From Owenia fusiformis (lineage: Eukaryota > Annelida > Polychaeta > Sabellida > Oweniidae): a DNA stretch of 64,000 nt. Position numbers and translations under genes: made by a program. Below, piece by piece: positions 33,301 through 60,300 of the stretch (the stretch's first letter is position 1; each line of letters opens with the position of its first letter). The DNA is taken from positions 4,903,730 to 4,967,729 of the forward strand of contig CAIIXF020000007.1 in NCBI GenBank assembly GCA_903813345.2, read 5' to 3'. The notes under the pieces were generated by a model. The model did not search any database, had not been told where the DNA came from, and saw only the letters and a program-made list of their open reading frames with translations.

Positions 33301-36300
33301 CCAAGGGAAAATGAATACATCTCTTGAGGGACCCCAGAGACACATATTTCCTGAAAACCATTTATCCAAAACATAACAGATGAATTCCATACCTATTGGG
33401 GTTCTATATATATTCTGTATATTCTACTTTATTAGTTCCAAGAAAAGACGATGAAAGAGTACATAGTAAGATACAATATGGTAAAACACAATGTGGTAGA
33501 ATACAATATGGTAGAGTACAATATGGTAGAATATAATATGGTAGAGTACAATATGGTAGAATACAATATGGTAAAGTACAATATACAGTAGTAGAATACA
33601 ATATAGTATACATCTGCTCCAAATCACATATTATGCTTCTGCATTAATTAAAGTAAAATCAGTAGACACAGAATAGACTAATTTGGTTTTAAAAGCAGAT
33701 ATCCTTGTAATTGATTCAAAATGATAAGTGTAAACAAACCCTAATATGCATGACTATCTACATATAATGTTAATAGATTCATTCCCTGAAAAAGTAAAAC
33801 AGTTTTGTTCTTGTTTGTACCCAAATTCTTGGAGCTACTCTTAAATATTGCATCAAATTATTGTGAGGCATAAATTAATGCATACAAAGTCATTAATCAA
33901 TGCATACAAAGTTTTCTGTTTATAAAATACAAAACTGTCAATAGAATTTCAAAATTAAACTTCAATAAGATACCTTTAGATAACAGCGAAATAAACTTAT
34001 TATTTAAGATATTATTTTGATTGAATAATATTGTGCAAAGTGCAAACCTAAATATCCAAATGTGTTTGCCATGCATTATAATCAGAATATGAAATATAAA
34101 GCATCAATACTTATAGATGATTCTACAAGCCTAACTAAAATGTGTGGACAAGATGCAATATTTACAGTAGATTTAGAAAGTAACAGGTCTCCAAGACTGA
34201 TCTTCCACAACTCCGGACATCAATTCCAGCCTCGCTAACAACATTCCTTGCACCTAAACCACAGTTCTTATATGGTGAATATCAATTCTTTAGTCGCGAA
34301 CTACTATTTCCTCTCTCTTGAGCTTATTTCTCCACTCGCGCACTTAGTTCCAACATCATGAACAATTTGTACATAGAATCCCAAGTACCCAAATGTACCA
34401 TGTACACATTTTTTATGATGTGGGAACTCAGTGCGCGAGACGAGAAATAAGTTTGGGAAAGAGAAAATGGTGGTTTGAGACTCAAGAATCAGTATTTCCG
34501 ATGTGAGAAGCATGGTTCAGGTGCGAGGAATGTGGTTAGTTAAGTTGGAAGTGATGTCCATGGTTGTGGAGGTCTAGGAGGCCTGAAATAAGATTTTCAA
34601 AGAAAATGATGCAAAATCAAACATTTGTGACATATGCAAGCAGAAAAACAAGCTTCAAGCCTAATTTTGTTTAAACCTAAAATTAAAATAAAATTTGCAT
34701 GCAAATATACATGCAGTGCAAACCTATAAAGGCAACAAGCTTTCATCATTGCATTAAATTAATTTGCTGCCCCTCAGATTACCCATATTCTATCTGTTTT
34801 TTCAAATAATGCTCATTGTAGTCCCTCACTCACTATTAGTGATTCTAATACAGGAATCAATGATAATACTAGGAATCCCACAATACAATTTTTCGATATG
34901 TATCTCGATATTATGAAAATGATGCAATACAAACAAGTCCATACATAGGTATTTTTTGATTTTCATTTTCATTTGAGTAACATATCTCACACAGACACCA
35001 TAGGGCATATACGTGTGGTAGGATAATGTATCTTGAAATCTCAAGGTAGAAACAACTCCCCGTATTAATCTGAGAATCTGGCTAGGACCACAGACAGTTC
35101 AAGCCACCACATGCCTTTTATCGAGTTAGTATCACTCTAGTAATCAATTCTCTGGTGCACTGCCCTTATAAAAAATTCAACCTTGAAAGTCCGAATTTAA
35201 ACCGTTTCCATCAATCATTGAAAGATCAAAGGAAAAACCATTGTACGGTGATAAGCAATCATTGTGCAACCATTGCGTTCAACCAAACAAAGTCAACTCT
35301 TTTTCAATGACTGCGCAACCATTTCTATACAATCATTGTAATCTGCAACCATTGTAAACTGCAACCATTTCACATTGAAATGTAAATGGTTGCAATACGT
35401 TTTGTTCAATGATTACATAGTTCAAGCCCTGCAACCAATTGGTATCGTTCCAAAAAAGTAATCATTTTACTTGAATTAAAATTATCTTTAAGTAAGGATT
35501 TGAATCTACCTCTCTTCAACAACAGTATATTAGGATATTTTTTCTGCAAGCAAACATGCATGTTTATTATAGTAAATTACTAAATTCATGTTCATATGTT
35601 TCTTTCTCCAGTACGGATTTAGGAATGCGATACCAGACTAGTTTTCCACTCAATGGCATATGATAATTTATGTTCTCTGTCATTTACATTATTTACACAA
35701 TTAAAAGTACCATATCTAGTGTTTATTTCCCATTATCTGATATTGCCAAAATAATGTATCTTTGATGTTAATTATGAAAAGAATTGAGCAAAATTCCAAT
35801 TTGGTTAAGAAATTGACCAAGGAAAATCTTAAGATTTCCTTTAAACTTAACAAAATCACAAGATGAGACACCATTGTTTTTGTTCATGATTAGACTGATA
35901 TACAAGTATGATCAAAAGAAGCAGGATATGATGTACAAAATAATACAAACATGTAATCACAAGTTGATTGCTTTATTTAGTGAAAATGTTTTTATAGTAA
36001 TAATGCATTCAGGCACCAAAGACTTAATTTTTACAGTTTCAATGGAAAACATCTGAATTAATAATTTCAGTAAAATTTACAATGAACAGGCCAGTAGTCA
36101 GCCTCCCCCCAGCAAAATGGGTCTTCAAATGTATCCATGTGTAGTTAACACCAAATATCAAGAGTATGACTCACTAACATTTAAAAAATACAAACAAGAG
36201 GACTATTTAGATATTGACTGTATATTATGTGTGAAACACATTATTCACAACAGATTTAATAACCATGTTCTTTCTTGGCAAATATTTTTTATAACAATGC

Positions 36301-39300
36301 TCAACACAACAATACCTACTACATATTCATATTCTCATGGGTTTAAGAAAATCAAAATGCTTGAACAGCCAATTAAAACGGTTGAACAGCTAATTAAAAC
36401 AGTTGAACAGCTAATTAAAACGGTTGAACGGCTAATTAAAATGCTTGACCAGAAAAAGGGTTCATAGTCCTAGTTTCTGTTATCTATTTTCATCATGTGT
36501 TATACTATATATTTATTTTAATTATCTATTTCATGCAGAGGGAGGGGGGAGTTAAAATTTAAAAAGTGTTTTCAGATTTTTGAGGGTTTATTTCTTTATT
36601 TAATTACTTCAATAAGTGCTTAGAAATCTCAAATAGCAAGTATATGAAACTGCAAATAATATTTTCAGAATTTTTTTCAGAATATTTTCAGTTTGTTTTA
36701 CCATAGGCATTCAATAGATTGAACGTCCATAGTTTTACTTTATTCACTAGGGCAGAGCATTTGTACTGAAAAGTGTTTTCAGTTTAAATAATATGTGTTG
36801 ATGATTAAAAAATAACCAAAAACAGGGCTTATTTTTCAAAACTCTAAACTTGGAAAAATCTGGAGGAAAATATGGGAGATTTTCTTTGGCAAATTATTTA
36901 TCAAGTTCTGTGTATGGAATAATTTAAATTACATAGGATGCTTCCTTTATAGCAGACTCTAATCAAACTGACATAATAAGGTTTGTTTTGCCTTGCTGAA
37001 TTATTTTTGTTTTGTTTATGGATTAATGGATTAATAAAGTTTCTTTAGACACATCCTTCAAAGCAGACTCTAATCAAAATAGATAGACGGAGTCTAACTG
37101 TAATCAGAGTTTTTTAAGTTATGCTTATCGTCTTAATTATTTAAAACACATCCTGTAATGTCTGATTGCATTTTCTCTATCAAATCAAAAATATCAAATC
37201 AAAACAGATTATTTTCCCATTGAAGGATTTCTTCCTTCCAGACACATCTTCCTTCCTTTATAATTGCGATGATTGCAAGGTGAAGTGTAAAATCCAAGAC
37301 TTGACCCAATCAAAATTTTTTCAAATGATTTTGCAATAACTTAAAAAGTAGTGAAGTGATTTTGTAAAAATGATAGTCATGACAGCGAGGGGGATTTGCT
37401 ATGCCTAAGCATTAATTGCTGTTATCTAGATAATATACATGTGAGTTAGACAATCACCATCCTTCAAAGTTAGATGAAAATTGGTTCAATATATTTTCAT
37501 TCACAAGACAAGTTTACTTAACTATTTCAATACTTTAAACATCTTTTTGATCAAACCATTTAAATTCTGACCTGTACAGTATGCATGAAATACACACATT
37601 TGAAATATATTCTTTAAAGAGCAAAATAATTATTTTATGTTGTATTGAGATAAAATTGCCATAGTTTTAAAGGGTTGCATTCGATTGAAACAGTTGCAAG
37701 AAATGCACCCAAAATTGTCAAGCGTTTACAATGGTTACATATGATTGAAACATTTCAATGAGTTTACAACCAAAATTGTAATGGTTGCATCGTAACGGTT
37801 GGCATGGTTGCATAAATGATCGGATCAATGATTGTACAATGATTGTGCAATGGTTTAAATTCGGACTTTCAAGGTTGAATTTTTTATAAGGGTAGTTAGC
37901 ATGATATCCTCCATATTACGAATATTAGCAAGAATATATTCTAATTGATAGGATTTAAATTTTACAGAGGGTTCACTATTCATTAATAAATATTTGATAG
38001 TCAGGTTTGGTAAATGTTTGCTAAATATATGGCAAATTGGAAAGATACTTTAAAATCTTTATTATAAAATAACAAAATGCAGAGGGAATATTGCTTTTAT
38101 TACATATTCAGATAATTCATGCTATATTATTTGGTTGGAAATGCACATAGGTCATCTAAAATCACAAATGTTCGCAAAATTAATGAAATTCTAAAATAAA
38201 CTGCTTTTTGCAAAAAAACGTTACAAGGCATGTCATATTTATTGTCAAAAGATTTTACTTTTATTTTAATTGAGTTTTGCTGTGTCAATTTTGGGTTATA
38301 TATCTCCTCTACTAAGATTTGGAAGTGATTTCTAATGATTATTTTGGTGTATCGAGCAACCGTGGGATCCCTAGTTTTATACCCATGCAGATTAGTAAAT
38401 GTGCAATTGTGCTTTTTATGCCCATTTCTTGCTTTCTCTATGATTTCTCTCTCTAATTTGAATGGATGACTCATTTTCTGTCATTTCCATACAATTGAGT
38501 GAAGACTTCATGCCTCGTATGCACTTTTTTCCTTGTTATTTCCCTCTTTGCCCCTATTTAGGATTTCAAATCATTAACCCCATGACAATTTTGGCAGGCA
38601 TGGTGATTTTTGTGCCACTTTAATGGACTCACACTCTGATTGCTATTTAGGTAAGCCACCAAATCTTCTCGCGATGAAACTTTTGACATCGCCAGATAAC
38701 TCGTTGAGCGCATTCTCTTGAGCCTATAGTTCAACTAAAGGTGCAACAGAATTAAATATCATGCAAAATATGTATTGATGTTAAAAATTAGTATATTAAT
38801 ATCCATTAGTGATTAACTACTGACATTCATTTATCTTCCAAAATATATATAAAACAAATAAACTAATTATGTACAAATAATATGTAAACAATATTGTGCA
38901 AAAATAATTATAGAAGCAACATTCATGTATGTATGCACATAGCTGATGAGCTTATAGAGATCATAATGCATTTTTTCTGTATCATAAGAATGATGTAAAT
39001 ATGGCATACATTTCTTAAATTTAGAGCATCTAAAGTATTTCATGGAATGCTTGCAAATAATCTCTAAATTGAATAAGTGCCAAGAAAAAATCTAATGGAC
39101 ATTATGCAAGGGTCGATCCAGATATTCTGATAAAAATGCTCTTATTTATTTATTTTTGGGAGATGCATGATATTAGCACATAATGTAAAACTTATTTGGA
39201 CATAAGTCATAACAATCAAAATTGTAGTTTAATATTCAAGCATTTAACAATATTTAACAACATGAAGTTAATACATATACAATATCGAATGAACACAGTA

Positions 39301-42300
39301 ATGGTAAAGCAACACTTACCCCATTAGCTGTACCATCATCGTACCCCAGGCCCGCCTGGAGTCTCGCAATTCTCAATTCACATTGACTTTTTACAAATAC
39401 AAGACTGCTAAGCTGTTGCTTGACGAATGTATCATCCTCGCCTCCTGTGTCCTTTGAGCGCCATCTGGCGATATCCATGTCAAGCTTTTCTCGGACAGCT
39501 TGGAGTTCATCTAAACTGTCTGAGAGTTTTATCGCTAGCACAAATGTATCATTATTAATAGGGGTATCCAGACACTGAAATCGAAAAAGAGATATTTATA
39601 AATGATCTCATGTATACCACTAAGTAAAGGGTCAGATTATAGATATTACCATAAAATATCACTAACAGTAAGTGGTACAGAGAAAAGGTCAAATAAAACT
39701 AAAAACATTGATTGAACGAAACTCAGGAAACTTTGGGTTATGATGGTCCAAAAAGTAGATGTCATTTGGCCAGACATGGCCTTGACTGGAAAAACATATC
39801 CCATAATGCAATTCCCAATAAGCAGACGACAAAGTTATGACTTACCATCCAGATAATAAGCTGGTTGATGTAGTCTGGATCAGACATGAGGTTAATGACG
39901 GGAAGGAACACACCATTGACTAGACATTCACGCACTATGTGTTTGAAAGGTTTGTTGTGGAAGTCCTCAGGAGGCAGAAGTAAATACAGCAAAACATCAC
40001 TTAGTTCTTGGAGATATTCTGCAAGTTCAGACAATGGCATGTTTTGAAATGTAATATATAAAGGATATAAAGTGAAACAACAAGGAATAAAATATATGAG
40101 TACAGGTTTTTGTCAACACTTAAAATTGAATAAAAATGTCAGAAAATCAGCCATATGCCATAATGCTACAGACATTGAAATTCAGCATGATATCCATTTA
40201 AAATGTAATAGCCTATACTTGTGTATAGTAAATGATGATTTCATATATATTTACCATAATGCAAAACACATTTTTAACAAACACTGAAATTCAGGAAAAT
40301 ATTACATTATCCCATAATGCAACTCGAAAAACAGATAAGAAATGATGAGTTCATATCCCATAATGCAACAGAAGAAGCAGACTACACACTTTACCTCTTT
40401 CTTTGAATGGGTCAGTACAAATAGTATCTCTACATAAGTTGTTTTCCATCTCTACCTCAAGATCAAAGAATACTGATGTCAAATCAGGTGGGACTTTACT
40501 CTCTGAAATAATGTGTATAAAATGTGTATTTTCAAATTTAAATAAAGGAAAATACAAGTAAACAACATATTACACAGACTATTTTTATGTTGAAATAAAA
40601 ATCAGTTTATTTCAGTTCTGAACAGTCTAAATTTAATAATTTGAAGGATTTTACTTTATTTTTATCATATTAATCTCTTTATATTTCAAGGATATGTGCT
40701 GATAAGTGTTCTATTCTTACCATCTTTTTTAGCTTCCTTTCGCACTTTTTCTTGCGCTCGTCGGAATAAACGTAAATGTGATGCAAAGTCATCTACTAAA
40801 TTTGTTGTACAATATGGCACCCAGTCAACCTCTTTACATCTGGAAGATAAGCAATCCATGGACCAATCATTAAGACTATCTTATGATACTGCTAAGGGCG
40901 GAACAAGGATAAGGTGAGGCAATCTTAAATAGGTGAGGCAAATTTAAATAGGTGAGGCAAAATAAAATAGGTGAGGCATATAATTTAAATAGGTGAGGGA
41001 AAACTTAAGCCAAAGAGGACATTTTAACAGTCATTGATTCAGACAAAAAGATGTATAAGATATAAAAATATTTTTCTGTTAAATATGCAAATATGTATAA
41101 ATCAGTGGAGCAAAATACAGTAAAACCCGTGTTTATTGAACATTTTTGCCAAGAAAAAAAGCGTTCAGTGATGACAAGTGCTTACGACAGAGAGAGAGTA
41201 GTTTATACAGAAGCCAACAGAGTGTGTACGGAGAAAGGATGTCTACTAGAGACAGGTGTTCCCAAGAGAGGTGTTTAATAAGACAGGTTTTACTGTACAT
41301 TCCAATAAGGAATAAAAAACATTTCAGCTGTGACAAATTCCTTGAGCACGCTTATTATCAATACATGTCCACTTTCAAACCATGATTGCTGTTCATGAGT
41401 TATAGCTAGCTCGCAAGTTGAAATAGATTGCGAGTTTCTAGAGGATAACTCAAGGCAATGTATAGGCAGCTCTGACGAGCTATACTCTTATCTAGTTACG
41501 GACTCGGGAGTTACACCTCTAGTTTTTACCCATTTAACATGATTCTTATACATAATAGGTTCTCAAATGAAATTCTACACGATCATTTAATCTTGATGAT
41601 TCGGAAATACTCTTTTGTTAAAATGACAAATGAGAAAAATAATAATTTCGGATATGAGATATGTCCCTGTAGTATACTTTCAGAAAAGGCTGATTAAAAC
41701 AGATATTAACTTTTCTCAAATTATGCACTTTGTAACATTATTCAGTCCAGTGCATAGTTCCAATAAATGCCTCAAACTTAGGCGATCCACCATTTATGTA
41801 TTTGCTTATTAGGGAAATTTCATTGGGTCCATTCATTCAACTGTATTAGCAATTGGTGACTCCAAGCATCAATCAAAGTGGGTGCAGCATTCATTCAAGA
41901 TTTTAAGAACAGGCTTGCACCCTCTTGTCAACTCACTTGCGCCATCTTGAAAATGAAAAGAATCACGAAAAATTGCAGGTTATGTTAAATAACAATATTT
42001 CTCACCTTTCAGAAAATGCTATAACGACTTTTTGTAAAGTGAGTCGCATGTCATACCGGAACTTCCCATCATCGCTGATTTTTTTATACCATATATGAAT
42101 ATAGTCCCGATATGTGAAATCTAAAATCTGAAAAGTGAAGAAGAAAAACATTATATATGAATAATTCATTAAAATTCATATTAGATTAGCACAGTAAGTT
42201 ATTCATATACTAGTGGTGGTAATAAAGTTCTCATAATAAAACGATATAAGAGATAATTTGAGAACCTTATGAGCACCCCTTGTATAATATACAGGATTTC

Positions 42301-45300
42301 CTGCTACTTATGTGATGATAACTTTTGGATAATTCATATTACAGATTTCCTTTTCACCACAGAGGAACTCTTCAAACCGATTGTGAAAATGGATCTGTTT
42401 CAGTTACAAAGCAGTGCAGGCTCGGATTTACAATTTTCCATGATTTCACGAGATGAAGGCACTGGCAAATTCTTTACAACCATTATTTGGCACAAATGTG
42501 TATTTGCACAATTTGATTAAACAGTACCGTTTACATAACAAAAGTGTTTTGATTATTCTGGCATCTTGTGAACAATTCCTTCACAAATGCTTAGATTTTC
42601 TGAAAGATATGATGCTGACAATGAATTATGGAATAAGGAAACACTTGAAAATCAATGTCAATGTTAAATAAAGCGAGGGAAATCTGTTTTTGGCTATAAA
42701 TACACGAACTGTTCCTTCTGACCATACCTATTCCATGCTATTTCTTTCTAAAATTTGAATGAACTACCTCATTTTCTTGTATTTCTTTATAATTTAGAGT
42801 ATTAACTACATGCCTCTTTACTTTATTCTTAACTGATTTTACTCTTTATCTTCTATTTTTAGATTTTAAAACGTGACCGTATGATATTTTTCTCACAGGA
42901 ATGAACAATGCACTAACTCTGACAATCAATATTACCTCAATTATACCCACACACATTTATAGAATACATAGTACTCTGTGATGAAGATCGGGTACTTATA
43001 TATAATTCTCAAGATTTGAGCAGTTTTCTAAATCACTGGAGTAAAAAGTAGAAATGAATCTTAAAAACTAAAATGGAATATTAGTATTAAGTTACAAATA
43101 TATTTAACATCACATTAAAATTCGAGGAATTGTGAAAATGTTGGAATTGGGTTTTACTTCATGCACAGGGTAAATGGTCTTATCTTGTGCCACAAGTAGA
43201 GAGAGGTTATGTACTTCAAGGTGTATCTGACCCTCTCCACAGAAAAGCTGACATTCTAATATCAATCTTTAAATTCTCTGTGATATGTACTTACACAATT
43301 ATATTTTAACAGATACATAAGGGTTATGTACTGGGAGGTTTTGGATATGGGGTTTATCCAGAGGGAGATATGCATATCTACCTAAGGGACCATAGGGACC
43401 GAAGGTAGATGTGCATATCTCACAAGGGATGAACCCAATATCCAAACCGACCGTACATAACTGCTTTATCCTTTACCAAGTAGAGTTTTCAGGGGCATGT
43501 GGCCATTTCAATAGTACAAGGCATAAAAATAAACAAATCATTCATATGCAAAGTCATTTTATTGCATTACCGGAAGCGGAAGATATGCACCGGAAGCGGG
43601 AAGATATGCACCGAAGCGGGAGATATGGCGGGAGATATGGAGGTTCTGAATTTGGAAACCTCAAAATCAGGATACGGGATATATCTTACCAACTTATCTC
43701 CCTAAAACTATACTTGGCATAGGATAAGTGATGTTACGTCCCAGTGATATGTACAGAATACGTTATCATGAGAAATCAAGTCAAACATTTTAATGGGTTT
43801 GCAAACAACCCAAAAAGTCTCTTATAATGACAATTCATGCTCTGATTTTACACCCTTGAGACTGTCTAATCTCCATTCTCTATAATCAAGTCTTACAAAT
43901 GAAACATGGTACAAGATGAGATACAATTCAATGAATTACCCATTCCGCCTACTTCATTAACCAATTCATTTGTTAAGCTTTATATATCTAGTTTCTCGTA
44001 TCTAATCTAATGTTACATACAATAACAAATAATACAGTTGTCTATTATAAAATGTACTTTAGTGTATTGATCATGAGACATCTTATAACATCATAACATA
44101 ATAGCCATGTTTTGAAATGGAAAATAAGGCATACACCTGACAAAATGTCACAACTTGGCTGGACATAGTATGAGTTACAAGTCTACCTGGCTTCTTCTCT
44201 GTTTTATAAAATATGTTGCCATGGTAACATATATTCCTGCGAAGACTCATAATATGTCTAAAGGTGCTCATGGCTAAAGGTGTATTTGAAGTGTTCTGAT
44301 GTAATTGCAAATTAGAAAAATGTAAAAATTTGTTACAGACACCGAAATCCAAGTTCACAAAAAATTGAAATGAAATAAATGAACTTTTTTCTCAACAGGT
44401 ATCTTTCCAACACTTGAATCACATAGAGAAGCCAGAAATTGAGTTTATTAATTAAAATTCTAGAGAGAGAAAACATAGGAACAGACATAAACAGACATAT
44501 GAAACAGTATAACATGGTAAATACTAGCCTTCTAGTAATTACCTTCAGACAGAAATGTGGCTTTGGGAATGACTAAATCCAGATATTGAAAATGAATGAA
44601 TAAATAAATATTCTTCAAATATCTGAAGTTAAACATTCATGGAAAAGCTATGCTAAAATCCTTCTAAAAAAGCATTTCTATTCCTAATTTAGACAAATTA
44701 AGTTGCACCATATAAAAACTATAAATACAATATACAGTAAAAACCTTTGGTACCTCTAAAAAGTGTTCAATTTGGGAGGTGTTCTACTTATAGAGGTTCA
44801 TTTAACAAAAAGTCGGTTTGTCTTGGGATTCTGAAAAGTGTTCCACTAAGAGAGGAATTCCATTTCTAAAGGTGTTCCACTTTACAGGTTTTAGTGTGCT
44901 TGGATCTCAATGTAAAAATATAAAATGAATATATAGTGGTACCTCTTGTAATACTTCATCTATTGCACTTGCCCCTGTCATACGTTTGTCCGTTCTGTAA
45001 TGCCGCTGTATATGGGTCACATCATCGATAATCTGCAAAGAAATTAACATGCAATCGGTCAATTCAGAAAGTCTCTACATTTGTTAGCCCAAGAGCTAAC
45101 CCGCTGAGGAAAGGGGCCTAGTACTATGGCTATGAAGCTCTAATTTGAAGAGGTGTTTTAAAGGGGTGTTCAAGGACAGGTGTCACAGTAGAGCCTCAGG
45201 AAGACTGAACTGAAGTTGATGAAACCGTAGCTCAATAAATGAGTATATTGGTTGAAGACAAAAGAACATGTATTCAGAATGAACTATACAAACCATTAGA

Positions 45301-48300
45301 ACCTATTCTTTAATATTCAAGAACTGTTTTCGCAACGAAGAAAAGTAGAGTGAAAAATGGCTGATCGTTTTTTCATCATCCATCTTTGATTCCATCTCAT
45401 TGTGTTTGCCAGGATCTTTCATTATGGCTGGAATCTTAAGGGAATGTAGATTTTTCCAAATAAAGCGCAGAGATGGTCATGTTTTCAAATGTAGAATAGA
45501 GTGTTAAAGTGAGGATGCAGCAAAAAAACAAAATAAAGAAAAACATGAATAACACTCGAAATTGTGCAGGAATCCCTGAAAATCAGGTTCAACTCTAAGA
45601 GAAAATTGGTGTAAAATATGCCAGTAGACAGATATTTTACATATTCGTACAAGGGTAAATAACACAGAGACAATTAACCTTTCTTGTAGACATTAATCCA
45701 TATTAGGTGAGTGAACCTCTGACTGGACAAACAGGTCATATTTTAGAGATGAGAAACAGTGGGAAAGTGAGGATTAAACAAGGTGTAGGCAAGAAATATG
45801 ATAAACAGCAAGAAAGCATCAATATCAAATTGTGACAAAATATATAAACAACGAAAGAAAAACATTGCCCAAACAGATATCAAAACCATAATAAATCGTT
45901 AAGACAGAGATAGCAAAATAAACAATAAACACAAATTCTTGGTAAACGTGTGATAATATTTATAAGGGAAGATTAATAGAAAACTTGGGTATATTGGTAT
46001 TCACAGTAGAGTTTCCAATCTATTTCTTAAATTGATATAGAATGGTGGTAGGTAATGAAGAACCTTTAGCCTGCCTTGTACATGGACAAGTATTGACCTT
46101 TGTAGGTTTGGATATATGAAAATGAAAGTGGCCAAATCAAAAATAGAAATTTTCATTTAAACATTTGAAGATGTGCCATATTCTAATTGTCACCTGAATA
46201 AGTATTGTTCTCTGTGATCTGATTGGTTCACAGTTGGTTGCTACACCCCATGCAGACAGATCCCCTAAAATTACATTCTTATGATGCGAGAGTCGGCATT
46301 CAACAGGAAACTAGAAACATTTTGTCACCCATGTAGCAAATTATTTTTTCACTGGTGAATAAATTCTGAATGGCAGTCACATAAGGTTTTACCAGTATGA
46401 GAATAGCATGAAATTTTGATATTTCAAAGTAACTCGTTGATAAGGCGAGGGCGTTTGATTGAAATTACTATGTAAAAATAAAACCGGAACAAAATATTAA
46501 TAGATTTCTTTGAAAAAGTAAATGCATCATATGAATATAATTTAAGGCGATCTGTCTGCATGGGGTGTTGCTATGATACCTCAATCTTTCATTTATTTAC
46601 AACGATATTATTTAGCATGATATTCTTGGATCAAGTCTCTATAGAATGAACCTATGTTCAAATAATATTGGTTCATCTATGGATCTTGGGTAATCTTTCC
46701 CTCTTTTCGAAATGCTTACTTTTCCTGGGCCTACTTTAGTCTTTGGAACTCTACTTGGTTTATTCATTAGTGTTGTTTCAGATCTGCTCTTCCCATAGTA
46801 GTATATTATACTGGCACCCCTGCAAATATATAATGTAAATATGTATTCTTCCCATAGTAGTATATTATACTGGCACCCCTGCAAATATATAATGTAAATA
46901 TGTAGTCTTCCCATAGTAATATATTATACTGGCACCCCTGCAAATATATAATATAAATATGTAGTCTTCCAATAGTAATATATTATACTGGCACCCCTGC
47001 AAATATATAATGTAAATATGTATTCTTCCCATAGTAGTATATTATACTGGCACCCCTGCAAATATATAATGTAAATATGTATTCTTCCCATAGTAATATA
47101 TTATACTGGCACCCCTGCAAATATATAATTAAAATATGTAGTCTTCCCATAGTAATATATTATACTGGCACCCCTGCAAATATATAATGTAAATATGTAG
47201 TCTTCTCATAGTAATATATTATACTGGCACCCCTGCAAATATATAATGTAAATACATGTATGTAGTCTTCCCATAGTAATATATTATACTGGCACCCCTG
47301 CAAATATATAATGTAAATATGTAGTCTTCCCATAGTAATATATTATACTGGCACCCCTGCAAATATATAATGTAAATATGTAGACTTCCCATAGTAATAT
47401 ATTATAATGGCACCCCTGCAAATATATAATGTAAATATGTAGTCTTCCAATAGTAATATATTATACTGGCACCCCTGCAAATATATAATGTAAATATGTA
47501 GTCTTCCCATAGTAATATATTATACTGGCACCCCTGCAAATATATAATGTAAATATGTAGACTTCCCATAGTAATATATTATAATGGCACCCCTGCAAAT
47601 ATATAATGTAAATATGTAGTCTTCCAATAGTAATATATTATACTGGCACCCCTGCAAATAATATAATGTAAATATGTAGTCTTCCAATAGTAATATATTA
47701 TACTGGCACCCCTGCAAATATATAATGTAAATATATAGTCTTCCAATAGTAATATATTATACTGGCACCCCTGCAAATATATAATGTAAATATGTAGTCT
47801 TCCCATAGTAATATATTATACTGGCACCCCTGCAAATATATAATGTAAATATATAGTCTTCCCATATATTATACTGGCACCCCTGCAAATATATAATGTA
47901 AATATGTAGTCTTCCCATAGTAATATATTATACTGGCACCCCTGCAAATATAAAATGTAAATATGTAGTCTTCCCATAGTAATATATTATACTGGCACCC
48001 CTGCAAATATATAATGTAAATATGTAGTCTTCCCATAGTAATATATTATACTGGCACCCCTGCAAATATATAATGTAAATATGTAGTCTTCCCAAAAGTA
48101 ATATATTATAATGGCACCACTGCAAATATATAATGTAAATATGTAGTCTTCCCATAGTAATATATTATAATGGCACCCCTGCAAATATATAATGTAAATA
48201 TGTAGTCTTCCCATAGTAATATATTATACTGGCACCCCTGCAAATATATAATAATGCTATACAACGATTAACCATTTAATATCCCAAAATGATGATGTAA

Positions 48301-51300
48301 AATCAAAAAGTACATAAATATGACATTCCATGAACAGCACAATTTTCAAACCAAAAGAATCATCAATACATGCGTCATAATGGCGCAACAAGGTCCAAAT
48401 CCATTCTCTAACTCTTAAATAAATGCATTCCCATTGAGGTACAAGTAGATTTGAGGTAAAATTACAAAAGAGCAATAATCACAAAACAAGGTTATATGAC
48501 CATGCAATTATTTTCATACTAGATTGATGGGATCAAGCAATTCATTTACTCTATAATAGCAGTTACGTCCTATTCGAATGCAGATAAATTGCTGAGGATT
48601 TCCTGACCATATTGCAAATGTACAAAATATCCCGAATTGGAATTTCTAGTTGCTAGACTTTTTACTCAGTCATTCTATAAACTGTTAATATTTTTTTCAT
48701 TTTTGTACAATCAAGGTAGTTAACTTCAAACCTGTTTTTTCTATTCCTTGTTTTTTCCCTTACAACTTTATATTTTAAAGCATGACCATCAAAACAATTT
48801 AGTCACAAGAATATAACACTGACAATGATAAACATTGATGGGACTACCAATCTTAGATGATACCTTTGTAAAAATTTCCAAACGCAATCCCCTCTGACCA
48901 ACAACAGAGGCCCATTTCCATAAGCAATTTCAAAGGACAATGATTATGAGATTATTACACAGCACAAAGTTCTTTTGATTTCATAACTCTATTGTTCTTT
49001 TACTATAACATCTTATCTAGATTACAAAAAATAGTGGACATTCTTAGAGAAGTATGCTACTTTACATGAATTCACTCCAAATAAACTGATATTAAACATG
49101 TAAAAGCAGAAATTAAAGTTTGGGGAATATTGGTATACTAAATGATAAAATGAGGTCAATGTATCCTAGTATTTCTCATTTATTTCACATTCTCTTTTAT
49201 GTTGATATTGTTGATGTTTTAAATGTTAAGGATGTTGACCCTTGGCAGCATCCTCACCCATTAAGATATTACATATGACTGAAGGAATATACTGCTTTAA
49301 CAGTCTGCCTTGTCTGCCGAATGTACAAAAAAAGAAAAACAATGAACATATAAAACATCAATAAACTTGAAAAAATGAAAATTTCGGTGGCCAATTTATT
49401 CAACCTAAGAATTCATAACCTGGTGTTATTCATAACACATTCTCATAAAATAAAAAGTATTATCATTCCATTTAACAATATTTAATCATGGTAACTTGCT
49501 TTAGGTTAGATATAAATGCTCTTTGTCACATACACCCAAACTGCTTCTATTCAAATTGTCATATATTTTATAGTTGATAACTTTAGCCATTCACAAAAAA
49601 ACTTCTATTCACTTAAATGTAGAGTATAGCGTGAACTATGAATATAAACCACTTCAGAATAGGGTTTACTTTATAAGATTTCTTACATTTAAGTAATCTT
49701 GTATCACATCCAATTATACCCCCTCCAATAATCTCCCCCCCCCCCCTTTTCATCACACTCTAAATTTCGCGATCTTTTTCTCCCTCTCTTTCTCCCTCAC
49801 TCTCTCTCGCTCTATCTCCCCTACCCTCACTATCTCACCCCCTTTCCCTCACACACTCATTCAAACAAAGGGTCTTAGTTAGAGTAACAGACTGCAGGGC
49901 AGGAGGGGACGAACAAAATACTTAATGCAAGTCTAGCTTTAGCCAATATGACACATATTTCTAGAGTGTGGGAATCACTGTGAGAAAACATTGTTAATCG
50001 CAATCCTACATTCTCTTATACAACATCAGAACATGTAAAACATAAGTTAACAACAATAATATATGTCAATCTTAAATATTATCTCTGCCACAGAACTCAT
50101 TGACCTAGCATAACAGACAGTATATGATAAAAATACATTGTTCTATGAATACAACCAAATGTATAATCTATCAAGGCTTAAACTAGACTATCAAGCTAAA
50201 CATGTACAAATGTCCTTCATTCTCTTGTTAGAAGGTATTACTGTAGATTTAACAGTTATCATAAACCTTTTGTATGCTATCAAAATAAAAATATGCTATC
50301 AGTGGTTAACATTATGACAAAAATAAATAATAAGGCATTAATAATTGCAAAATGTCACCACCTGCAATTTGTTACAAATGCTGACCATCAACTATGAAAC
50401 CACAACTGCCGATCACTGTCTACAAAAATATAACTAGAAACTAGAAAAACAGCAACTCCATGGATTAGCAAATCCAACCGAATAAAACTTGTTTTGATAA
50501 ATAGCGGCCATATAAAATTTGAGCCAAATCCATCTACTGGTATTTGAGTTATCAAAGATTATGTTTTTCTGAAACATGGTTGCCATTTTGAAATTCAGCT
50601 GTCATCTTTAAATTTCTTCTTGAGCAGAGCTCCTATGTCCCTAAGCATCAGTATATAAAATTTAATCCACATCTGTCAACTGGTACTTGAGTTATCAAGG
50701 ATTACATGTTTACTGAAAAATGGTGGAGATTTCAATAAAGAGCAGCCATCTTTAAATTTTCTTCTAAAGCAGTGCTCATTTATCTCTAGCCACAGTATAT
50801 AAAATTTGAAGTAAATCCGTCTACTGGTATTTGAGTTATCAAATATTACCTTTTTTATGAAAGATGGCAGCTATTTTGAAATTCAGCTTACGCCTTTGAA
50901 ATTTCTTCTGAAGCAGATTTCATTTGTTCCTAGACATCAGTATAAAAATTGGAACCAAATCCATCTACTGGTTTATCAATGATTATGTTTTACGAAAAAT
51001 GGTGGCCATTTTAAAATTCAGAGGCCATCCTTAAAATGTCTTCTTGAGCAGAACTTCTTTGTCTCTAGGCATCAGCATATAGAATTTGAACCAGATCTGG
51101 CAACTGGGATTTGAGTTATCAAGGGTTACATTCTTTTACGAAAAATGGTGGCCATTTTGAAATTTAGCTGCCATCTTGAAAATCCCTTCTCCTATGTCCC
51201 TAGGCATCAGCATGTAAAATTTGAACCAAATCCATTCAATGGAATTGGGAGTTATCAAAGATGTTTTTTAAGAAAAATGGTGGCCATTTTGAAATAAAGC

Positions 51301-54300
51301 GGCCATCTTGAAAATGTCTTCTTGAGCAAGGCTCTTTTGTACACAGGCAACACCATATAAAATTTGAACCAAATCCGTCCACAAGTATTTGATTTATAAA
51401 GGATTATATTTTTCTAATGAAAATTCCTTCTCGAGGTCCTACCCCATAAGGGCATAAGCCTATAAAATTTGAATCAAATCCGTTGACTGGTATTTGAGTT
51501 ATTGCAGGGACAGACAGAAGAACGGACGGACAGCTTTCCTATATCCCCATTGAACTTTGTTCAGTGGGATAACAATATGTCACCACTTATGGTGGTGACA
51601 TAAAACTAAAAAAATAACACGCAATACTGTTTTGACACTGATCTAAGAAAATCTGATACACTATAATTGGTAGAGTTCATAAGCCAGATATCTAACATGG
51701 ATAAGCACTCTTAGTTTTGCGAATTCAATATGTTCCATCACCGCACTATAATATATACTTCCTCGAACTGACACTCATACTCTGATGCTCTACACTATAA
51801 TTAAAACCAGCTTAATATAACAAAGGATACTTGATGTAATGAGTAGATTATCCTTGAGAATTACAATTATATAATATTATTGCATGTGGGTATGAAAAGC
51901 AATGCAAGAGCAAACTCTGCTTGTCCATATTCATCAAATAACATAATTAATTTTTAAGAATAGCTTGGCTCTACCTCATTTTTAATGAAAATACTTTGTT
52001 CTTATTTCTAGGAATAGTACATTTGTATGTAAGTTATACAATTCAATCTATTTTATATGTCATTACTACCAACCAATTACTGATAGTCATTACCTAAATA
52101 TTGATTTAATGACTTTCTTCTTCAAAAAATCAATGATGTAAAAAAACATGATGGCCCTTGACCCCCATGTCTAAATGAAAAATATAATTACATCATTGAC
52201 ATGATTATTCAGATATTCAATTCTACAATTATAACTCCTTCACATTTCCCGTGTGATCCCGATCAGTAAGAAACATCACCTATGTCATTGAATATCTATA
52301 TATAACAGAAAGATTTTTTGATTATCAATCAAATAAGAAGAACAAAACAGAAGGCACATGATGAATAATATTTTCGAAAAAAAACTTCATTTACCTTTAT
52401 CGGTCTATTTAAATGAATGTTGAACAAACAAGAAACCATGAGGTATAATGCTTTACCATTCCTGAAGCAGAACATATGAATATGAGTAATTTAGACAGTG
52501 ACATTGAAGTTGTGAGCTACAATGTCAATATTTTGATGATGCTAATTTGGAAATCCTTGGTTGTGAAATGAAGGATGCATAGGGCATATGCTGCTGTCAG
52601 GAGTGGTATGTGCAATTGAAAGGGAAGCTAGACTCATTTATGCTTTTATTGTAAATATTTTCTGTTTTGATTTGAAGAGAAATTAATTTTAAACAGAATG
52701 TAAAAGTGTCATCAAGTAAAATAAATACCTAAAGATGATAACATCTTTTGTAATCACAGGGTGAAAAAAATTCAGAACTTTTACGTCACGAAAGATACAG
52801 AAAAGGTCCAGAAACTGATCATGGTAGAGTTATACCCAAAAGTTAGTGGCTGCACTATCTTATACTTTTGTTTTTATAAAGATAATTGAGTGTTACCTGC
52901 CTTTGTTCTATACCCAAGTGATATCACAACACCCTTATTTTGTAATTTGTAGGTCAATTGGGAGGATTTTTCTTTTCTGGGACATGTTGCTGGTGTCCTT
53001 TTCTTACACAGAAGAGGCATAAAGTCATGTGAGAGATTATGTGTTATAACTCTTCACTTAAAGCAAGTTATTATAGCATCAATCATTCGTTTATAGAACA
53101 ATAGATACAAAAATTCTAATGGAATTTGTTTTGATGACCTGCTAGGTTATTAAACATACCATTTAGTCAAATATGGCCTTAAAAATCTTTCGCAATTAGT
53201 ATCAGAGAGGAAATTTGATTTAATGGTACAACAGCGAAGATTTGCAAGACAAGTAAGCTCAGAAAAGTAACCCATAGGCAACATGAACATTCCTTCGTCA
53301 TATCTACATATAAAACATTGACACAAAGGTAAATATTATTTAAAATGATCTAGTTTATTCAGATGCTATACAATTCAGTTTATACATATAAACAAACAAA
53401 TTCACTGTTTAATAGTGGTTGTTGTATTGGTTGTATCCAGTATATCCGTAAGATGGGGCTTGGTATCCGTAAGATGGGGCCTGGTATCCGTAAGATGGAG
53501 TCTCGTATGCTGGCTCAGCGTGGTAGACTGGCTCAGGGGCCTTGTACTCTGGCTCAGGGGCTTTGTACTCTGGCTCAGGGGCTTTGTATACTGGGGCACT
53601 GTAGGCAGCCTTGCTGCATACCTTGGTGGAATCATCAAAAGCAGTTCCTGAAGAAAACAATTTTTGTCATTTATTCTAGCTATAAAAACGTATTTACCTA
53701 CTTATATACAGAATACCTGGTCTAAACTATAGATTTTTAGTTCTTAGTGAAGGTAGTGAGAATATATAAATTCCTTTGTCGGAATATTACATTATGTTGT
53801 TAAGGTTGTTTATTGTATTTTAGAGCAGCTTACCATATGGGCACTTCATGAAGAAAGGCTTGCAGCAGATACAGGCTTTGCCATATTTGTAGTCACATCC
53901 GCACTGGATGAAACCATTCTTGTTGTATTTGTCAGCGAAAAGACCACTTGGGTTGTTGTAGCATTTGCCGTCACAGGGATCTAAAATTGCAAGTGTCCAA
54001 ATCAGAAAAACTGTAAAAACTTAAACAATATCGTTAATATCTACATCAGAAGGCTGAAGGTCAAAACAAAAATTACAATATCCTTGTATCACCATGGATT
54101 TCAATTGCTTCTACATATTCTAAAAAAAACAAACAATTTTTTTGTGATGGATGAGATGTGCAAACATACATATACCAACTGCTGAACACATTTAAAGATA
54201 TGTCTACTAACTTGGGTAAGAGGAATAGTAAGATGGCTTGTATCCACAGACTCCATAGTCTCCAAGCTGTTTGCTGTTGCAGAGATCTCCCTTGCAGAAA

Positions 54301-57300
54301 TACCAGAGAGAACCAGCCTGGTTGGCACATTGCTTGTAGGTAGACACTCCAAGGGGAAGGTTCTCCTTGTTAGCACAGCCACGGTACACAAGACCATTGG
54401 GGTCTTTACGGATGAAGCACTCTCCGGAAGCACAGCTCCATTTGTCGAGGGACTCGGCATCTCCATATTTGGCGAGGGCACATCCAGCATATCCTGCATT
54501 AGAGGACACTCTGGTCCAGTAGTTTACCTGCTTGGTGTAACCAGATGGGGCATAGTTGCAGTCATAGCAACGAGCTATAAAAAAGAAGAAAAATCAACAT
54601 AAATATTAAAATTCTTTTGGTTAAATAAGAAGATAACAAGCTAATAGAGTAAAAAATCGAATATTGATGATACTGTCGCTGATCAGTCAAACAATCAATT
54701 AAAAATAGAAAAATTTCCCAAATAGACTAACTTACACAGCAATTTGCTGCCAATGTTATGAAAAAAGATAAAAACTTTGACTTACATCCGTAGCCACTGG
54801 CGAAGACTGTGGCAAGTCCAGCAAGGAAGATGGCAGCAGACAACATTGTTGTGTGTATGATCTGACTGTTCAAGTGGAGATGATTTCTAAATGCTTGGGC
54901 AAGCTTTTATAACAATTGAAACAGGATGAGCCAAACTTGAGTTATGTTAATTAATATACACACCTGAATATTAATTAAAATTAAGGAAGTTCACATGCTC
55001 TGGTTATGCCATTGGCAATGTCGAATCTAGGCTCAAGGAGCAAATGATCGGTCATTAGCTAATTACAGTATAATATTACATTAATTGATACTTGACAGAT
55101 AGAACATGAGTGCATTGGTTTCATTTCCTAACAATACATAACACATATAATTAATCTATTTCTGATCAGACACAAAAAAATTATGGTTAGGACTAACCAA
55201 ACTTAGGTTCAGAGAAGTACATAATAGAATCGTTGAGAACTTTGAAATAAGAAACTCTTATTTCAACTTTTCATCAAATATTGTTGTATTTAGGACAAAA
55301 AAGGAAATGTGTTATCACAAGCAGGTATGTAAAAAAAAATTAGTGTTTGAGCAAAAAATAAATGTTGGAAAAACAAGTTAGTCTATGATATCAACTTAAG
55401 ACCATACTCTTGATAAATCTGTATAGTTCATGATAGATCTGTACCAGATAATGGTATGATTACCATGACAATGTTGAAAATTTATAAATCACTGTTCAAA
55501 ATAAGCTACTGGGAGTTTTGTCATTTATTATCAATCTTCCTAAATACAGATGTTGAGGAAAAATTGTGATTTTTCAATGGGAAATAATGAAAAAGACAAT
55601 TAGAATCTATTTCAAAGATTTTATATCATTAGCATGAAGGCATTGATATGCAATGTCACCACCTACACCTGCCATTTGTTACAAACGCTGACCACCAAAC
55701 TCTGACTACTGAACACTGTCTACTAGTCAATAAAAAAGTTTGAGACTATAACAAAATATGTTACCACTAAGACATTTTTTCAAGATATACACAGCAATAC
55801 ACACTTACAACAGAGCCATTCAAAGTTTATACAATCAAATATTGTTACAATTAAAAGATCTATCACTTCAATAATGGTAAGTATGGAACTTAATTTCAAC
55901 ATTTTTATTACACTTTTCAGATAACTGAGGAAAGAAAGGATGGGACAGAAGAGTTAGGATCTCATTTCAAGTGCAACATTTGAAGGCTTGTCTGATATAG
56001 ATAATCAATTCAGTGAAATAGGCAACAGCCATTATAAATTCTTTCGCTGACATAAGAGGTTCATCGATATGAACAATGTTATCTCCTTTCTTTTCATGCC
56101 TAGATATACTTTCACCAGCACTAAAAGCTGAGGGTCTGATGAACAAAATGCATAAGATAGATCAACATATAATATATTAACAATGGTTCAAGGTACAAAA
56201 TATAATACCTCATTATCCCAAGGTCTTGTTGTTTTTCAAATTGTACAATGTGATAATGCTTCATGAAAAGTTGGGGAGCGGTGTTAGACATTGTTCTTTG
56301 TGTATTTTTGAAGACTCTAATTTGAGATATCAGGTTTTGGAAACCTTTGTTTTATAATGCTTGTGACACAAGTGTTTTATAATGAGTGATTAATGGCTAC
56401 AACAGTTTTCTATTTGCCATGGTTTATAATCTATATGATTCATGAATATGCAATTCTTAATATCAGAGCAGTAAGTATTCTAGGTGTTAAATCTTGTAGC
56501 AGTAAGTATTCTAGTTGTATAAATCTCTGAGCAGTAAGTATTCTAGTTTTATAATTCTCTGAGCAGTAAGTATTCTAGTTGTATAATTCTCTGAGCAGTA
56601 AGTATTCTAGTTGTATAGTTCTCTGAGCAGTAAGTATTCTAGTTGTATAATTCTCTGAGCAGTAAGTATTCTAGTTGTATAATTCTCTGAGCAGTAAGTA
56701 TTCTAGTTGTATAATTCTCTGAGCAGTAAGTATTCTAGTTGTATAATTCTCTGAGCAGTAAGTATTCTAGTTTTATAATTCTCTGAGCAGTAAGTATTCT
56801 AGTTGTATAATTCTCTGAGCAGTAAGTATTCTAGTTGTATAATTCTCTGAGCAGTAAGTATTCTAGTTGTATAATTCTCTGAGCAGTAAGTATTCTAGTT
56901 GTATAATTCTCTGAGCAGTAAGTATTCTAGTTGTATAATTCTCTGAGCAGTAAGTATTCTAGTCGTATAAATCTCTGAGCAGTAAGTATTCTAGTTGTAT
57001 AATTCTCTGAGCAGTAAGTATTCTAGTTGAATAATTCTATGAGCAGTAAGTATTCTAGTTTTATAATTCTCTGAGCAGTAAGTATTCTAGTTGTATAATT
57101 ATCTGAGCAGTAAGTATTCTAGTTATATAATTCTCTGAGCAGTAAGTATTCTAGTTGTATAATTCTATGAGCAGTAAGTATTCTAGTTGTATAATTTTAT
57201 GAGCAGTAAGTATTCTAGTTGTATAATTCTCTGAGCAGTAAGTATTCTAGTTGTATAATTCTCTGAGCAGTAAGTATTCTAGTTGTATAATTCTCTGAGC

Positions 57301-60300
57301 AGTAAGTATTCTAGTTGTATAATTCTCTGAGCAGTAAGTATTCTAGTTGTATAATTCTCTGAGCAGTAAGTATTCTAGTTGTATAATTCTCTGAGCAGTA
57401 AGTATTCTAGTTGTATAATTCTCTGAGCAGTAAGTATTCTAGTTGTATAATTCTCTGAGCAGTAAGTATTCTAGTTGTATAATTCTCTGAGCAGTAAGTA
57501 TTCTAGTTGTATAATTCTCTGAGCAGTAAGTATTCTAGTTGTATAGTTCTCTGAGCAGTAAGTATTCTAGATATATAATTCTCTGAGCAGTAAGTATTCT
57601 AGTTGTATATTCTCTGAGCAGTAAGTGTTCTAGTTGTATATTCTCTGAGCAGTAAGTATTCTAGTTATATAATTCTCTGAGCAGTAAGTATTCTAGTTGT
57701 ATAGTTTTCTGAGCTGTTTTTGCTTGTCTTTTTGACTTACTTGAACCTCATGTTTTAACTTAATTTACTTTAGTAAGGGATTTGTTTAACTTATAAATCT
57801 TAATCATGCCCTAAATGAAAATGTTTTATCTAATGAAAAATAAAACTGCTTTGATCCAAACCAACTGGTGCAAAATGTCAACATGAACTTTAAATCCTTA
57901 TAAAAATTATTAAACATTGGTTTAAATGTTACTGTAGTATTGTATTGAAAAAAACATGCTGGTGTTCTGAACCTTGTTATAAAAATGTATCAGTAACAGT
58001 TCGTTAATTCTGATAGATTGTTGCAAGAATTTAACTACATGATGTATATACAATGTGTTCATCTTGATTTCTCACATTTTTGATTTTGACTTCAAAATAT
58101 TGTGATATCAGTGTATTCTTTCAGTCTAATGGAATAATACCTTGACTGATTAAGATGGCTTCAGCATAGAGATCATTTAAAATGACATTCATAGCCTAAT
58201 TAGCTACTGTCTGTATTATGATCTATTAAGACTTGTCTCACCAATGAAGACGGCCTTAAGGATTACCTAATTGAGGTAAACCTATTTAGGTATTATGCTA
58301 CAATAGTACAGCTCATAAAGTCTTTAAGGACAAAGTAGATCTGGCACGGTGTAAGATATCAACTAGGGTTTACTGATGTTAATTTGTAAACCACATTGTT
58401 CAACAAAAAAGTACAAAATTGCATGAGGATTTCAAAATCACAAATTGAATCAACTCATTCAACAGTGATTGTGCAATAGACCTCTGAAATTTGACAATAA
58501 TAGTGATTTTACTACATGTGCTTGATTTTCACTACTTGACATTGATGTATCAATTTCATTCTCTCAAATTATGTTAAGGTATATTCTTTCTTCAAAAAGA
58601 GGCTGGCAGGTGAATGAAGTCATCTTTTTTTCAAGTTTGATCAAAACAAATTAAAATTATAATTTGTACCCAATGAAGTGAACATTGAGGTAGGTAGCAA
58701 AAACAGCTACTTGGTGATATATACAGGTAGTGTATTGGTCAGATCATAAAGAAAGTACTTCTAAAGAAAGTGACTTGAATAACCTTATCACTATCAGTTA
58801 AACACAAAATTGAGAAAAATTAATGGAATTAGCAAAGATTGAAATACATAAACCATTGCACATCAAATTTTCAGAAAATCAGGCACTTATGGATCCAAAA
58901 TAGAGAAAACTATGACAACCTTAACCATTTATTCATGGGAATGGAGCAAATGAACATTCTATACAAATACAGATGCACCTGAATCAACAGGTTTGATGTC
59001 TATGTAGAATAACATATTTGTTCTTTTAAACAGTCGATAGCTGTTCAAAAGTTTATTGATTGTGTATGTTATGCAATCATGAATATCAAAGAGTTAATCA
59101 AGATCAGAAATAATGGCTATTAGGCCTTTCAAGATAAAAAATTAATCTGAATGACAAAAATTTCTACAAAAATAATTTATTAGTAGAATAGAATAATCTA
59201 TATGTATGATAAATTGTAAAGCAGGATGCAAGGTTTTAATGAGACTCGCTATGATTTTTTATATTACATATTTTTGCAGAATCTCTAATCAAATATACAT
59301 GACATATACAAAATAATAATTTATCAATTTTGTAATAGTCTTTCGTAACTCACCAATATCAACTATTTTTCAACAGAAATTTTGGCCCTATGAATTTGGA
59401 ATCATCTTCTCTATTACAATATCTTCAGTTAAATATTATGAAGATAGAATGTGTACAAAAATAAACCCAACTTTTGGGTCACTCTGTACATTTGTGCTTT
59501 CTTAAATTGTACTTAAATTGTACTTAGGAAAAGTGCTATATTGTCGTTGTCTGTTGTCTGGTGCTGCTTGATCTGATTAGGTTTTGGGCATGCTGGGTAA
59601 ATTACTTGGTGGCCATTTTGAATTTTTTCCATAAATCTTGTCATCAAAATTCCAGGAAAAACACTTTACACATACAACAGCAGACTATTGGCAACAACTG
59701 ATTAGGTTTTGAGCATGCTGGGTAAATAATATGCCAACCGTTTTACTCTTCAAAGTGTGATATTTATCCCTGTGTGTCTTGCTTAAGTTACACCCTATGC
59801 ATATTGAGAAGTTGACCAATTACCAAAAATATGTTTAGTGTATCAAAATGCTATAATAACTCATATTTTACTTCTACAACACAATGTTATATTTAGAACA
59901 TAGAACAACCTCCACTGGTTTATCAGCATCCTCACAATAATTATCTTATAACAAAAGCACTTAGCTGTCAAACATTAATTGTTTATTAATCAAAACCAAA
60001 GTACCAAGTACTTTACCACTAATTCAAACTTTTAGATGCAATAAACTCTATGGAGCAGTAGTATACTTTAAAACGGTTTCATTTGAAGTTGGATTACATA
60101 GCAATATGATGGTAGACAATTATAGTCATTCTGGTGTACCAAATCCCTTTCCCAGGTTTGAATGTATGGGAGAATTAACGATAGTTGAAAGGGGAAGTGC
60201 AAACTGTAAACCCCAGTCGATCCTATTAAGAAGATCCCCTCCCCAAACCTTGTATCATCCAACATCCTGTCAGCTGTGTTAATTGTTAATGTAATATGGT

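Follow-up and report, generated by a model that had tools for sequence, protein, structure and literature searches.

A probable "mirage" minisatellite of serial acceptors at the intron 1/exon 2 boundary of SNX13 in the annelid Owenia fusiformis

Minisatellite-like tandem duplications that span an intron–exon boundary have been described in lancelets (Branchiostoma) under the name "mirages" (PMC3087553, PMC3902484). The cases presented in these papers lie in Adh3, the globin genes BflGb6 and BflGb9, troponin C and PGBD5, and the unit of the Adh3 mirage is given there as 10–72 bp long (PMC3087553, PMC3902484). RT-PCR of the lancelet globins together with the Adh3 data is said to suggest regular splicing (PMC3087553), and the Adh and troponin C mirages are reported to duplicate splice sites and yet to yield no aberrant mRNAs (PMC3902484). 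It has also been proposed that new introns may arise from mirages (PMC3087553). In human CBS, 844ins68 duplicates the intron 7/exon 8 boundary; the downstream copy is described as strongly favored, with normal mRNA as the result (PMC2630376). That account itself speaks of the donor, whereas its cited source names the 3' splice site in the title. The same human gene harbors a 31-bp VNTR at exon 13/intron 13, for which more repeats are reported to go with lower CBS activity (PMC1395315, PMC5188458). Among the papers listed in searches of the open-access literature, a scope that leaves most subscription papers outside, the name "mirage" was met only for the lancelet cases and no boundary array of an annelid or a mollusc was found.

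We analyzed a window of 64,000 nucleotides from Owenia fusiformis, to which all coordinates refer, and found in it a 59-bp minisatellite lying across the boundary of intron 1 and exon 2 of SNX13. The author of a first-pass annotation knew of no described case exactly like this; the absence of such cases is refuted by the lancelet mirages, 844ins68 and the CBS 31-bp VNTR. The array is a boundary minisatellite of an already described type, and what is notable about it is the phylum, the 25 intact acceptors and the uniform premature stops.

SNX13 lies on the minus strand and extends from about 61.1 to 15.7 kb of the window. Its model of 23 exons was obtained by spliced alignment of the whole gene, guided by human SNX13; any GT-AG pair within 45.7 kb could be used, and consensus-like sites received a mild bonus. 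The model translation contains PXA, RGS, PX and Nexin_C domains, all above the Pfam cut-offs, and the best match among 766 protein hits is P0001, a 964-aa protein of Owenia fusiformis that shares 96% identity with the model. Judged from these domains and this match, the gene is SNX13. The model departs from P0001 at residues 363–374, at about 560–575 and at the last residues, and it was not relied on in these two stretches or at the C-terminal end; exons 1–3 are unaffected. The features of the locus are as follows.

60956..61074, minus strand: coding portion of SNX13 exon 1, 119 nt counted from the ATG, with donor TGG/GTAAGT
46820..60955, minus strand: SNX13 intron 1, 14,136 nt; the array occupies its 3' end (coordinates from the spliced alignment)
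46788..48252, minus strand: 59-bp minisatellite at the SNX13 intron 1/exon 2 boundary (Tandem Repeats Finder and reading of the units)
46820..48237, minus strand: 24 decoy acceptors, with first exonic bases from 48237 to 46878 and a spacing of mostly 59 nt (53–65)
47326..47679, minus strand: two adjacent three-unit blocks, units 14-13-12 and 11-10-09 (unit comparison)
46720..46819, minus strand: SNX13 exon 2, 100 nt (spliced alignment and residues 1–103 of P0001)
45033–46719, minus strand: SNX13 intron 2, 1,687 nt
44943..45032, minus strand: SNX13 exon 3, 90 nt (spliced alignment and identity to P0001)
15732..44942, minus strand: remaining SNX13 coding model, PXA-RGS-PX-Nexin_C (spliced alignment, Pfam)

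The spliced alignment put exon 2 at 46819–46720, which is on the last acceptor of the array, and found no better exon 2 elsewhere. Joins of a decoy to exon 2 were outside its reach because those products contain stops. Exon 1 ends in a split codon with two bases left over, and exons 1, 2 and 3 joined via the last acceptor encode 103 residues, 103/103 of which equal the start of P0001. The acceptor of exon 2, ATTATATATTTGCAG/, sits within the last array unit, and its donor is AAA/GTAAGC. Exon 2 opens with 31 nt of array-type sequence and continues with 69 unique nt; beyond the array-type part the true exon reads GCAGATCTG, whereas a decoy product runs into the next unit. We infer that P0001 comes from the gene set of the Owenia genome paper (PMC9977687), and it may rest partly on prediction. 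The gene models are described there as combining ab initio prediction with hints from Capitella proteins and with RNA-seq junctions that had been curated with Portcullis (PMC9977687). Therefore the exon 1-2 junction is probably backed by transcripts.

Tandem Repeats Finder reports the array at 46788–48252 with a period of 59 bp, 24.8 copies, 95% matches and a score of 2634. On the minus strand, each unit consists of 28 nt from the end of intron 1 and 31 nt from the start of exon 2; in gene direction the consensus is ACTACATATTTACATTATATATTTGCAG/GGGTGCCAGTATAATATATTACTATGGGAAG, where the slash is the acceptor. The array contains 25 TGCAG acceptors with the CAG intact in 25/25, and the true acceptor is the last of them (first exonic base 46819). 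Successive acceptors stand 59 nt apart in 20 of 24 intervals, and the remaining four intervals measure 53, 60, 60 and 65 nt. A branch-point-like TTTAC is found at −17 in the consensus unit. The first-pass annotation had placed the gene, its strand, the roughly 25 copies of a 59-bp boundary unit and the roughly 24 decoys upstream of the true acceptor correctly. Its "polyT-CAG" acceptor holds for the CAG and not for the poly-T, as the pyrimidine tract is U-rich (TATATATTTGCAG; 65% pyrimidine and 59% U at −20 to −4). Repeat intervals, 25 in number once Tandem Repeats Finder rows had been merged by hand, were checked against the ends of 22 exons of the model, leaving aside one doubtful exon of 27 nt. 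The 59-bp array was the sole interval within 30 nt of an exon end, and no other boundary array was found in the gene. A search of the window against Rfam gave no match at gathering scores.

Three features of a mirage are seen in the array, a unit that spans the intron–exon boundary, splice signals carried by the units and turnover among the units, and in these respects it is like the lancelet mirages as they are described, in which splice signals are kept in many units and sequence is exchanged among them. Unlike those cases, the host is an annelid and not a cephalochordate. There are 25 acceptors here against the 6 and 3 units reported for the two haplotypes of BflGb6, and the acceptor is kept in all Owenia units, whereas in BflGb6 it is described as kept in many but not all. 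Human 844ins68 likewise sets splice sites in series across a duplicated intron–exon boundary, but is described with two copies only, of a 68-bp unit. The CBS 31-bp VNTR is, like the Owenia array, a minisatellite across an exon–intron boundary; according to its descriptions it differs in lying at the 3' end of its exon (the donor side), in being non-coding and in having a copy number that varies in people. The units of this VNTR carry alternative donors. The comparison suggests that mirages are apparently not confined to lancelets and that Owenia provides a long, clean example in a worm.

The units record an exchange of sequence. Comparison of 24 units, the outermost one being omitted, revealed 17 distinct substitutions together with indels and block patterns. 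The two adjacent blocks 14-13-12 and 11-10-09 are identical at 176/176 aligned bases and differ by two one-base gaps. The +19 variant, a silent T-to-C change, is common to the true exon and decoys 1 and 4, and −27A is common to the true exon unit and decoys 3 and 4, as well as to decoy 7, where it lies beside an indel. The copied three-unit block and the variants common to the true exon and the decoys therefore argue that blocks were exchanged, the exon end included. The boundary unit is not exempt from homogenization here, in contrast to BflGb6, whose boundary units are described, in one example, as escaping it. The splice core from −9 to +8 holds 1/17 distinct substitutions (binomial P 0.024, uncorrected), whereas a scan test that allows for the choice of window gives P 0.34 for some 17-nt window as quiet as the core. 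We therefore find no firm evidence for selective maintenance of the decoys, and the claim of such selection was dropped. The CAG kept in 24/24 decoys could hint at upkeep, which counts against neutrality.

Local sequence was then compared between the true acceptor and the decoys. Site matrices were built from this gene with 3/22 model acceptors and 6/22 model donors omitted as doubtful, leaving 19 acceptors and 16 donors; when the array was scored, the true site was also removed from the acceptor matrix, leaving 18 acceptors. With this matrix the true site reaches 9.8; the decoys, 24 in all, range from 7.7 to 11.8, three of them (7.7, 9.1 and 9.6) falling below the true site. A scan of 812 AGs in intron 1, the first 60 nt being omitted, gave 21 AGs whose score equals or exceeds that of the true site; every one of these is a decoy. 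In predicted folding, the unpaired probability of the true AG is 0.66 compared with 0.55–0.71 for the six nearest decoys, and with wider windows it is 0.60 compared with 0.49–0.62. Because predicted folding is alike for the true site and its six nearest neighbors, an RNA structure hiding the decoys was rejected. The AGs in the outermost units appeared more paired, a weak trend to which we give no interpretation. Local sequence hardly separates the true acceptor from the decoys, and the choice between them should therefore rest on position.

We think it probable that the array is a slippage-born mirage in which exon 1 is mostly joined to the last acceptor by virtue of position. Repeated tandem duplication of the ancestral SNX13 intron 1/exon 2 boundary, through slippage or unequal exchange, would have given the minisatellite. 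Across the exon, U1 at the exon 2 donor GTAAGC would pair with the acceptor that lies nearest upstream, defining the 100-nt exon, and the spliceosome would mostly join exon 1 to the last acceptor. The array would be kept up by mutation and not by selection, and it is probably close to neutral. Precedents for this reading are the lancelet mirages, whose splicing is reported or suggested to be regular, and 844ins68, with its downstream copy strongly favored. According to a human survey, the sites closest across the exon are favored between long introns (PMC9225289). For 3' sites the upstream preference is given there as reduced, not clearly reversed, which counts against joining to the last acceptor (PMC9225289). 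Correct splicing had been presented in the first-pass annotation as running against the usual preference for the first AG. That preference holds downstream of one branch point, and the consensus unit has a branch-point-like TTTAC of its own; moreover, sites closest across the exon are favored between long introns, which points to the last acceptor. As the flanking introns measure 14.1 and 1.7 kb, the last acceptor should be favored by exon definition, which makes correct splicing less paradoxical than was claimed.

Joining exon 1 to a decoy leads to a premature stop in 24/24 cases. The stop comes after 23 exon-2 residues (chain residue 63) for 20 of the 24 decoys, in agreement with the TAA after about 23 residues noted in the first pass, and after chain residues 61, 65, 83 and 83 for the others. 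The stops lie 86–1445 nt ahead of the exon 2/3 junction (24/24 decoys), so that every decoy has one trait of regulated unproductive splicing (a decay switch), a premature stop ahead of a junction when the alternative site is used. The 50–55 nt rule for mRNA decay is established, from vertebrates. If the rule is assumed valid in annelids, mRNAs with stops at least 86 nt before the junction should therefore be decayed. Spliced via the decoys, exon 2 would measure 159 to 1518 nt instead of the true 100 nt. With the three nearest decoys, exon 2 would be 159, 218 or 277 nt long, an ordinary length for an exon, and some leakage is therefore likely. In the mechanism proposed above, the nearest one to three decoys may be used occasionally, giving early-stop mRNAs that would then be decayed. 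Predicted proteins were searched for the decoy peptide and yielded no candidate, a weak result as such sets may lack short peptides. The array sets the 25 near-identical acceptors of a single intron in natural competition, with mainly position able to separate true from false; Owenia reads would reveal the reach of exon definition at exon lengths of 159, 218 and 277 nt and more.

The decoys might also regulate the gene, as the first-pass annotation had suggested in proposing that the array could tune SNX13 levels by nonsense-mediated decay. They could compete with the true acceptor and, with decoy mRNAs being decayed, the number of units could set the level of SNX13. The position of the stops in all 24 decoys and the decoy scores, which are like that of the true site, speak for such a control, and the CBS 31-bp VNTR, in which more repeats are reported with lower enzyme activity (PMC5188458), offers a precedent. 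However, in lancelets splicing is reported or suggested to proceed undisturbed despite the mirages (PMC3087553, PMC3902484), the scan test gave no significant constraint on the decoys, and the search for the decoy peptide, weak as it is with such short peptides possibly absent from protein sets, produced no candidate. We consider this control by copy number unlikely. If it were true, SNX13 output would be set by a unit number that may vary between worms and between cells.

It is very unlikely that the array, or its copy number, is an artefact of assembly. The source of the Owenia assembly is described as the sperm of one male, with PacBio reads assembled by Canu and polished (PMC9977687), and exact counts in such arrays can err; a lancelet globin array is said to be aberrantly assembled in its draft (PMC3087553). 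Against this, the read N50 is given as 25.75–30.75 kb, far longer than the 1.5-kb array (PMC9977687), and the distinct substitutions, indels and block patterns among the 24 units are not what simple stutter would make. As PacBio reads of this length can span the array, the array very likely exists in the genome; its exact unit count may deviate slightly from the true one and may vary from worm to worm.

We regard it as highly improbable that a generic satellite inserted into the intron and then supplied the exon start. Such an origin would account for the first 31 nt of exon 2 being array-type sequence. However, the exon-2 start GASIIYYYGK is aligned ungapped and without insertion in 113/120 homologues (the best 120 of 766 matches, from several animal phyla and including P0001), and the G of its GK is kept by 111/120 of the same set. 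In the remaining seven, P0024 and P0047 are truncated and P0005, P0052, P0065, P0113 and P0116 have a gap or an insertion. These alignments indicate that the exon start is old and that the array was therefore copied from it. Moreover, three unit-specific words had zero matches outside the array on both strands of the whole window. Recursive splicing, in which the intron would be removed in steps via the units, would suit many serial acceptors in a long intron but can scarcely apply, as the acceptor has no adjoining donor (CAG/GGGTGCC) and the best of 48 array GTs scores 3.0 against 6.2–12.7 for 16 real donors.

Several other features were observed in the introns of SNX13. Intron 1 contains a second minisatellite at 56466–57714 (32 bp, 39.1 copies, 96% matches, Tandem Repeats Finder). 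Its consensus unit carries GCAGTAAGT on the plus strand, which is donor-like and antisense to SNX13, and no obvious exon was seen in the flanks inspected. A diverged tandem repeat lies in the same intron at 50510–51412 (144 bp, 6.4 copies, 71% matches). An inverted repeat at 46240–46571, in intron 2 and a short way downstream of exon 2, has 48-nt arms that are 90% complementary and 236 nt apart, and it looks like a small MITE-type element. On the minus strand at 53405–54906, within intron 1, we found a Cys-rich frame of 128 codons and a frame with YKAPEPEY/YGYQAPS repeats; three pieces taken from these frames were compared with Pfam and 0/3 matched. They are perhaps exons of a nested gene for a secreted protein. 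Finally, a frame of 409 codons (stop to stop) at 30980–32206 on the plus strand carries a rhodopsin-family 7TM domain (Pfam 7tm_1, E value 9.1e-29) and is nested antisense within an SNX13 intron.
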